Below, one piece after another: positions 50,230 through 51,752 of a stretch of 64,000 nt of DNA (position 1 is its first letter; each line of letters begins with the position of its first letter). The position numbers and the translations under genes are program-made. The notes below the pieces were generated by a model, which did not search any database, was not told the DNA's origin, and was given only the letters and a program-made list of their open reading frames with translations. Source of the stretch: Gemmatimonadota bacterium (GTDB lineage Bacteria > Gemmatimonadota > Gemmatimonadetes > Gemmatimonadales > Gemmatimonadaceae); NCBI GenBank assembly GCA_014192065.1, contig BJHH01000004.1, positions 186,001 to 250,000 on the forward strand, in the 5' to 3' direction.

Positions 50230-50258
50230 TTGACCCAACTGCCCGCGCTGCTTAGGTT
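50230..50258 (+). promoter_or_regulatory. Candidate promoter of the infC leader
   Basis: TTGACC (50230-50235, five of six) is followed after 17 bases by TAGGTT (50253-50258, three of six). Transcription would start near 50265 and give a leader of about 195 bases before infC. The -35 box is good, the -10 box weak. Confidence 0.45.
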
Positions 50259-50343
50259 TATCGGACATCGTAGAAAGTGGTTCGGCCTCGCAGCCGTACC
50301 CACCCTCTGGCCTCCGCTCTCAATTTAGAAGCGCCGTGCTGCC

Positions 50344-50435
50344 GGGTCCGCAGGGAGACCGTCACGCCACCTTGGTGGTTGCGTGATCTGAATCCTTTTT
50401 CGCGGACCCTCTCAACAGGGGTCCGCGATTTTTTT
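50344..50435 (+). promoter_or_regulatory. Attenuator-like leader with terminator and alternative pairing upstream of infC
   Basis: A strong intrinsic terminator is formed by CGCGGACCC (50401-50409) and GGGTCCGCG (50419-50427), followed by seven T (50429-50435). Upstream, GGGTCCGC (50344-50351) is perfectly complementary to eight bases (50402-50409) of the terminator's 5' arm, so the two pairings exclude each other. A nested hairpin (50363-50385; CCAC/GTGG and CACG/CGTG) would bring the distant arms together. This is the layout of transcription attenuation. The signal could be a ribosomal protein (such as L20) or IF-3, as in other infC-rpmI-rplT leaders; this is inferred. Confidence 0.62.
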
Positions 50436-50460
50436 CCCCTCGTGTTGGAGGATTGCAGAG

Positions 50461-50979
50461 ATTCAGGATACAACCAAGCGGCCGCCGCGCGTCAACCGGC
50501 AGATCCGCATCAGTCCGGTCCGTGTGATTGGAGCGGATGGTTCGCAGCTCGGAATCATGGAAGTGGATGCGGCGCTTGCTCAGGCGGTCGAGCAGGGGTT
50601 TGATCTCGTCGAGGTCGCTCCGCTCGCGAGGCCCCCAGTCGTCCGAATCATGGACTATGGGAAGTACAAGTTCGAAATGGCGAAGCAGGCCCGGGTCGCC
50701 AAGAAGAAGCAGCACATCATCCTGATCAAGGAAGTGAAGTACCGGCCGGGAATCGAAAAGCATGACTTCGACACCAAGACGAATCATGCGCGCCGTTTCC
50801 TGTCCGAGGGCAACAAGGTGAAGGTGACGTTGATGTTCCGCGGCCGTCAGATTGCGCATCCGGAAATCGGGCGCGCGGTGGTCGGGCGGGTCGCAGCGAC
50901 GCTTGCCGATGTGGCCAAGATCGAAACCGATGCGCGCCTTGAAGGCAAGGCGCTAACGATGATTCTGACGCCCAAGTAG
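50461..50979 (+). CDS. infC: Translation initiation factor IF-3 with ATT start
   Basis: The protein has 172 residues when started at ATT 50461. It matches the IF-3 N-terminus ([21 protein letters not shown]), then [36 protein letters not shown] and the C-terminal domain with [16 protein letters not shown] and [10 protein letters not shown]. No ATG, GTG or TTG exists at the right place. GGAGG (50447-50451) lies nine bases before the ATT. Rare starts (AUU) are a known device by which IF-3 limits its own synthesis. From the first GTG (50524) the protein would lose the conserved N-terminal segment. rpmI follows 16 bases on. Confidence 0.93.
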
Positions 50980-51647: not shown

Positions 51648-51683
51648 GCGGGGCCGGCTTTCGGAAACGAGAGCCGGCCCCGC
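51648..51683 (+). terminator. Strong 15-base hairpin between rplT and pheS
   Basis: GCGGGGCCGGCTTTC (51648-51662) and GAGAGCCGGCCCCGC (51669-51683) pair over 15 bases with a single G-T wobble, around a GGAAAC loop. There is no T-tract, so it is an imperfect candidate terminator for the infC operon or a structure in the pheS leader. Two shorter overlapping palindromes lie upstream around 51583-51603 (GGGT/ACCC). The region has no run of Phe codons, so E. coli-type pheS attenuation is not supported. Confidence 0.5.
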
Positions 51684-51752
51684 GTGCGTCTGGTCGCTAC
51701 GGCCGCGGCGCGGTTGCTGTCCCGTTTGCCATCCGCCGAATAGCTTTCATTG

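Follow-up and report, generated by a model that had tools for sequence, protein, structure and literature searches.

The L20 leader is known from Bacillus and other Firmicutes (L20_leader, Rfam RF00558), and its ligand in B. subtilis is ribosomal protein L20 (PMC6097659). One study reported it as restricted to Firmicutes (PMC6097659), and another listed Thermotogales besides Firmicutes and presumed a transfer (PMC3766115). Escherichia coli has the same infC-rpmI-rplT operon with an ATT-type infC start, but there L20 acts on the translation of rpmI and rplT by binding the operon mRNA at a long-range pseudoknot and at an irregular hairpin, rather than through attenuation before infC (PMC10931766). 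A Deltaproteobacterial L20 leader candidate has also been described, for which an AA dimer plus two consecutive G-C pairs was proposed as the L20 site (Eckert and Weinberg 2020, PMC7247131). The main text of this 2020 survey of ribosomal leaders mentions neither Gemmatimonadota nor infC (PMC7247131), and we found no report of a Gemmatimonadota infC leader in the open-access papers searched, an absence that is in itself no proof of being unreported.

Here we analyzed the leader of infC-rpmI-rplT in a Gemmatimonadota bacterium, in a window of 64,000 nucleotides (contig BJHH01000004.1, positions 186,001 to 250,000) in which all features described lie on the forward strand. A first-pass annotation of this DNA had proposed an attenuator-like leader resembling no known arrangement.

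Results

The infC leader has a conserved promoter and terminator

A promoter consisting of TTGACC (50230-50235), a 17-base spacer and TAGGTT (50253-50258) was predicted, with a transcription start at about 50265. The DNA similarity with the leaders of close relatives begins at 50230, namely at this very site, and 87 of 117 Gemmatimonadaceae leaders have a promoter-like pair there, mostly 16–19 bases away from the downstream AAG motif, versus 4 of 117 shuffled ones. The −10 element in this promoter family reads TAGGTT, TAGCTT or TAACTT and not TATAAT, and may represent the house-keeping promoter of the phylum.

At the other end of the leader, the intrinsic terminator (50400-50435), with arms CGCGGACCC (50401-50409) and GGGTCCGCG (50419-50427), seven T at 50429-50435, and 11 bases between the T run and the Shine-Dalgarno GGAGG (50447-50451), agreed with the first-pass annotation to the base, as did the position of GGGTCCGC at 50344-50351. 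Its stem of 11 pairs, eight of them G-C, is the longest among the terminator-like sites within 2 kb, and 104 of 117 Gemmatimonadaceae leaders have a terminator at the same place, generally 28–32 bases 5′ of infC, compared with 21 of 158 base-shuffled downstream stretches. The whole leader folded better than shuffled versions of itself (z = −2.2; 5/200 shuffles).

The operon downstream comprises infC for IF3 (50461-50979; PF05198, PF00707), with an ATT start codon, rpmI for L35 (50996-51193; PF01632) and rplT for L20 (51206-51568; PF00453, E = 1e-42), the last encoding the proposed ligand of the leader, and pheS and pheT lie 3′ of rplT in the operon region. Between rplT and pheS, a very strong hairpin spans 51650-51685 (GGGGCCGGCTTTC...GAGAGCCGGCCCC) and has no T tract.

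The leader is most conserved in a covarying 5′ domain

The most conserved part, 50265-50349, had been overlooked in the first-pass annotation. Beginning about 10 bases past the predicted start, the relatives share a core made up of AAGY, hairpin P1 and CACC(C/U), followed by the enclosed hairpin P2 and by GG(A)GU(C/U)C. In the window, AAG plus Y (50275-50278) supplies the 5′ side of the junction predicted to bind protein, and the AAG is invariant in 75 sequences, is unpaired in the model and recurs in the RF00558 consensus. It is followed by P1 (50279-50300; 50279-50286 pairing with 50293-50300) and by ACCC (50302-50305), the 5′ strand of P3, which is predicted from conservation and folding to pair with GGGU (50344-50347) and was a second, previously overlooked partner for this part of GGGTCCGC. 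P3 encloses, at 50309-50340, an inner helix, GGC (50309-50311) with GCU (50338-50340), and P2 (50315-50318 with 50330-50333).

Covariation was assessed in an alignment of 75 sequences made without structure (A1). P1 displayed both-sided changes at all eight pairs with 93–94% of cells paired, and its covariation is very strong. The inner and P2 helices also showed both-sided changes, such as GAU/AUU in L092. Over P1, P3, the inner helix and P2 together, standard pairs made up 88.9% of cells versus 73.9% in shuffled and 39–46% in slid controls, 216 cells had both-sided changes as against 66 for shuffled and no more than 75 for slid controls, and the covariation score was 0.383 versus 0.135. Two class-wide alignments (A2 and A3), both fitted to the model, yielded the same outcome. 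For P3, the A-U and the first C-G pair are invariant in 75/75 sequences, and the U-A at the inner edge often fails; this predicted pairing draws mainly on conservation and one covarying edge pair, not on full covariation. Pairing P3 as UCUG with CAGG was dropped, and ACCC(U) with (A)GG(A)GU holds in remote families.

One strand is shared by P3 and a candidate antiterminator

GGGTCCGC (50344-50351; GG(A/C/T)GUYC or GGGUYC in relatives) constitutes a three-way hub, being either the P3 3′ strand or the antiterminator 5′ strand, and is complementary over eight bases to the terminator 5′ arm, whose positions 50402-50409 double as the antiterminator 3′ strand. A small hairpin claimed earlier to be nested between the antiterminator arms was found at about 50361-50387 (P4); by folding it lies inside the antiterminator and varies among genomes. 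Constrained folds placed the two states about 1 kcal/mol apart (−65.8 kcal/mol for P3 plus terminator versus −64.9 for the antiterminator), and in growing-chain folds P3 was present at the RNA end 50352 and the antiterminator at ends 50409 and 50418.

The mutually exclusive pairings put forward in the first-pass annotation gained support from relatives, in which both partners are kept and a genome's own antiterminator pair is better than mixed-genome pairs. Namely, for the 126 distinct leaders in which a terminator was detected, the mean antiterminator duplex energy was −13.3 kcal/mol with the own terminator arm. It was −11.7 ± 0.2 when arms were permuted among genomes, a procedure taking no account of relatedness (0/300 permutations as good), and shuffling the 5′ arms brought it to −7.8. 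Restricting the comparison to the 33 remote leaders reduced the contrast (−12.2 versus −11.2 ± 0.35 kcal/mol), and some permutations were then as good. Changes on three strands that keep both pairings were exemplified by L118 and L172 (GGAGTTC / GAACTCC / GGGGTTC) and by L290 (CCGGGTTCG / CGAATCCGG / GGATTCGCC). A subgroup (L018, L084 and L086) carries another terminator, GGTCTTC/GAAGACC, the 5′ arm of which still pairs with most of a GGAGTCC hub. In only 74 of 138 leaders is the P3 3′ strand the place in the 5′ domain where the terminator arm pairs best; the antiterminator may therefore vary from lineage to lineage, and such differences are likely. An alternative structure excluding the terminator, which is among the features of RF00558, is supported by statistics and folding energy.

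The leader occurs throughout Gemmatimonadota

A model built from Gemmatimonadaceae and close kin (R1) matched 141 of 298 Gemmatimonadota genomes. A second one, built from the whole class and containing no other phylum (R2), matched 196 of the 298, in 83 of 119 genera, nearly always once per genome. In the genome under study, the sole significant R2 match was the infC leader (E = 5e-10, the next match having E = 9.8), and all 20 remote class-level matches that were fetched lay directly 5′ of infC. Judged from these alignments and searches, the leader is a real, conserved RNA element before infC across Gemmatimonadota. The earlier suggestion of a lineage-specific ribosomal leader proved too narrow, since the leader is phylum-wide and its core also precedes infC in Bacillota and Actinomycetota.

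The core is shared with the Firmicutes L20 leader

No Rfam model matched the leader in the window, at gathering and permissive thresholds alike. RF00558 had no match in the own genome and none over the cut-off in 30 Gemmatimonadota genomes (0/30), where the matches were weak and only two of them fell on or beside the leader. The claim in the first-pass annotation that the arrangement corresponds to none known was not upheld: the core of AAG, hairpin, [A/G]CC and GG is that of RF00558, the consensus of which (AAG-aAGAAG..CUUCUC-gCC-U..-CAGGc-..-terminator) contains the elements of this leader, arranged as they are here. Position 5′ of infC-rpmI-rplT, the AAG/H1/RCC/H2/GG junction and an intrinsic terminator at the 3′ end were all found in the leader, and the two have in common P1, the RCC...GG around a second hairpin and an optional third hairpin before the terminator. 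They differ in that the P3 3′ strand of Gemmatimonadota can also serve as the antiterminator arm and that a bulged base (AGG-A-GU) is frequent in this P3. In several Bacillota examples, by duplex energies only, the best partner of the terminator arm is instead the P1 loop or the P1 3′ strand. By Rfam score, the Gemmatimonadota leader falls outside RF00558 as the model stands, but it shares the defining junction.

When R2 was run on 30 infC loci of other phyla (Bacillota, Actinomycetota and others), 11 matches were obtained up to E = 10, all on the coding strand and within about 350 bases upstream of infC, RF00558 matches included. The probability of such placement at random is about 1e-16 if the loci are taken as independent, which is generous as some are related. 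In whole-genome R2 searches, the infC leader ranked first in three genomes of other phyla (E = 0.007–0.03). Few genomes gave significant scores, the best two (E = 0.007 and 0.02) coming from Coriobacteriaceae and lying 5′ of infC, so that the cross-phylum claim relies on position and not on single scores. Four actinomycetotal infC leaders (L205, L212, L223 and L225; Acidimicrobiia and Coriobacteriia) have the same AAGY-hairpin-CACC core. In Mycobacterium tuberculosis, the infC 5′ UTR is long and abundant (PMC3207917).

Discussion

We consider, at a probability of roughly 80%, that the leader is an L20-controlled attenuator of infC-rpmI-rplT working like the Bacillus leader, by analogy with which the ligand and the direction of response are assigned. 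Transcription would start near 50265, and in the emerging RNA AAGY-P1-CACC and GGGU (50344-50347) would fold into the P1/P3-P2 domain, whose junction, with AAG and the CC/GG pairs, is the putative L20 site. Once L20 exceeds the free 23S rRNA sites, it would bind the P1/P3 junction and lock P3, making GGGUCCGC unavailable, upon which the terminator (50400-50428) would form and stop transcription before infC. Without L20, GGGUCCGC would pair with 50402-50409 as the antiterminator, allowing read-through into infC, rpmI and rplT. The invariant AA and the CC/GG pairs of the Gemmatimonadota leader recall the site proposed for the Deltaproteobacterial candidate, which is described as another scaffold from another phylum (PMC7247131).

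The same attenuation could instead be driven by another product of the operon or another factor. The leader precedes infC, making IF3 the first gene product, and the operon also produces L35. This we regard as unlikely, given that the core is the L20 leader core and L20 is the ligand in B. subtilis (PMC6097659). As to IF3, the infC start codon in 116 Gemmatimonadaceae relatives is ATT in 83, ATC in 32 and ATA in one, and never ATG, GTG or TTG, which already offers IF3 a translational control of its own; an in-frame ATG, GTG or TTG lies within 36 bases upstream of this start in 24 of the 116. In E. coli, IF3 autoregulates its translation via the AUU start codon of infC. The start codons suggest that this autoregulation is kept beside the leader in Gemmatimonadaceae.

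Still less probable is a constitutive processing or partial termination site that has no ligand and merely tunes infC down: it would account for a strong and conserved terminator, but leaves unexplained the covarying P1/P3/P2 domain, the invariant single-stranded AAG and the alternative partner of the terminator arm. In E. coli, pheST, beside infC-rpmI-rplT, is under leader-peptide attenuation, and as pheS and pheT come after the operon here too, a ribosome-mediated or tRNA-sensing attenuator, perhaps tied to these genes, was also considered. A short ATG frame (6–40 codons) was present in only 25 of 119 leaders, with spacing not kept in multiples of three, and the leader-peptide attenuator was rejected for want of a conserved short frame; no covariance-model match to the T-box (RF00230) was obtained on the window. 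We deem this class of attenuator highly improbable.

The leader could plausibly share its ancestry with the Firmicutes leader. We put at about even odds that the AAGY-hairpin-CACC-...-GG(U) core goes back to a single ancient L20-sensing RNA, inherited in common by Bacillota, Actinomycetota and Gemmatimonadota and not a Firmicutes invention, which each phylum has connected to its terminator through a different antiterminator arm. Alternatively, the two leaders may have come independently to mimic the same site in 23S rRNA. The 23S rRNA of the own genome (L228) has an AAGCGG resembling the AAGYGG of the leader and adjoining what we take, by E. coli numbering, to be helix 40; AAG[CT]GG occurs nine times in the same 6-kb 23S locus, so this likeness is counted as a lead only.

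L20-leader attenuation as a type is already known in Firmicutes, and what is new is most likely its phylum-wide Gemmatimonadota form. That Rfam missed this version suggests that the known distribution of L20 leaders partly reflects model sensitivity. The broad Gemmatimonadota alignment can be used to seek L20 leaders elsewhere, and it also bears on whether these leaders share descent or originated repeatedly by mimicry of 23S rRNA.
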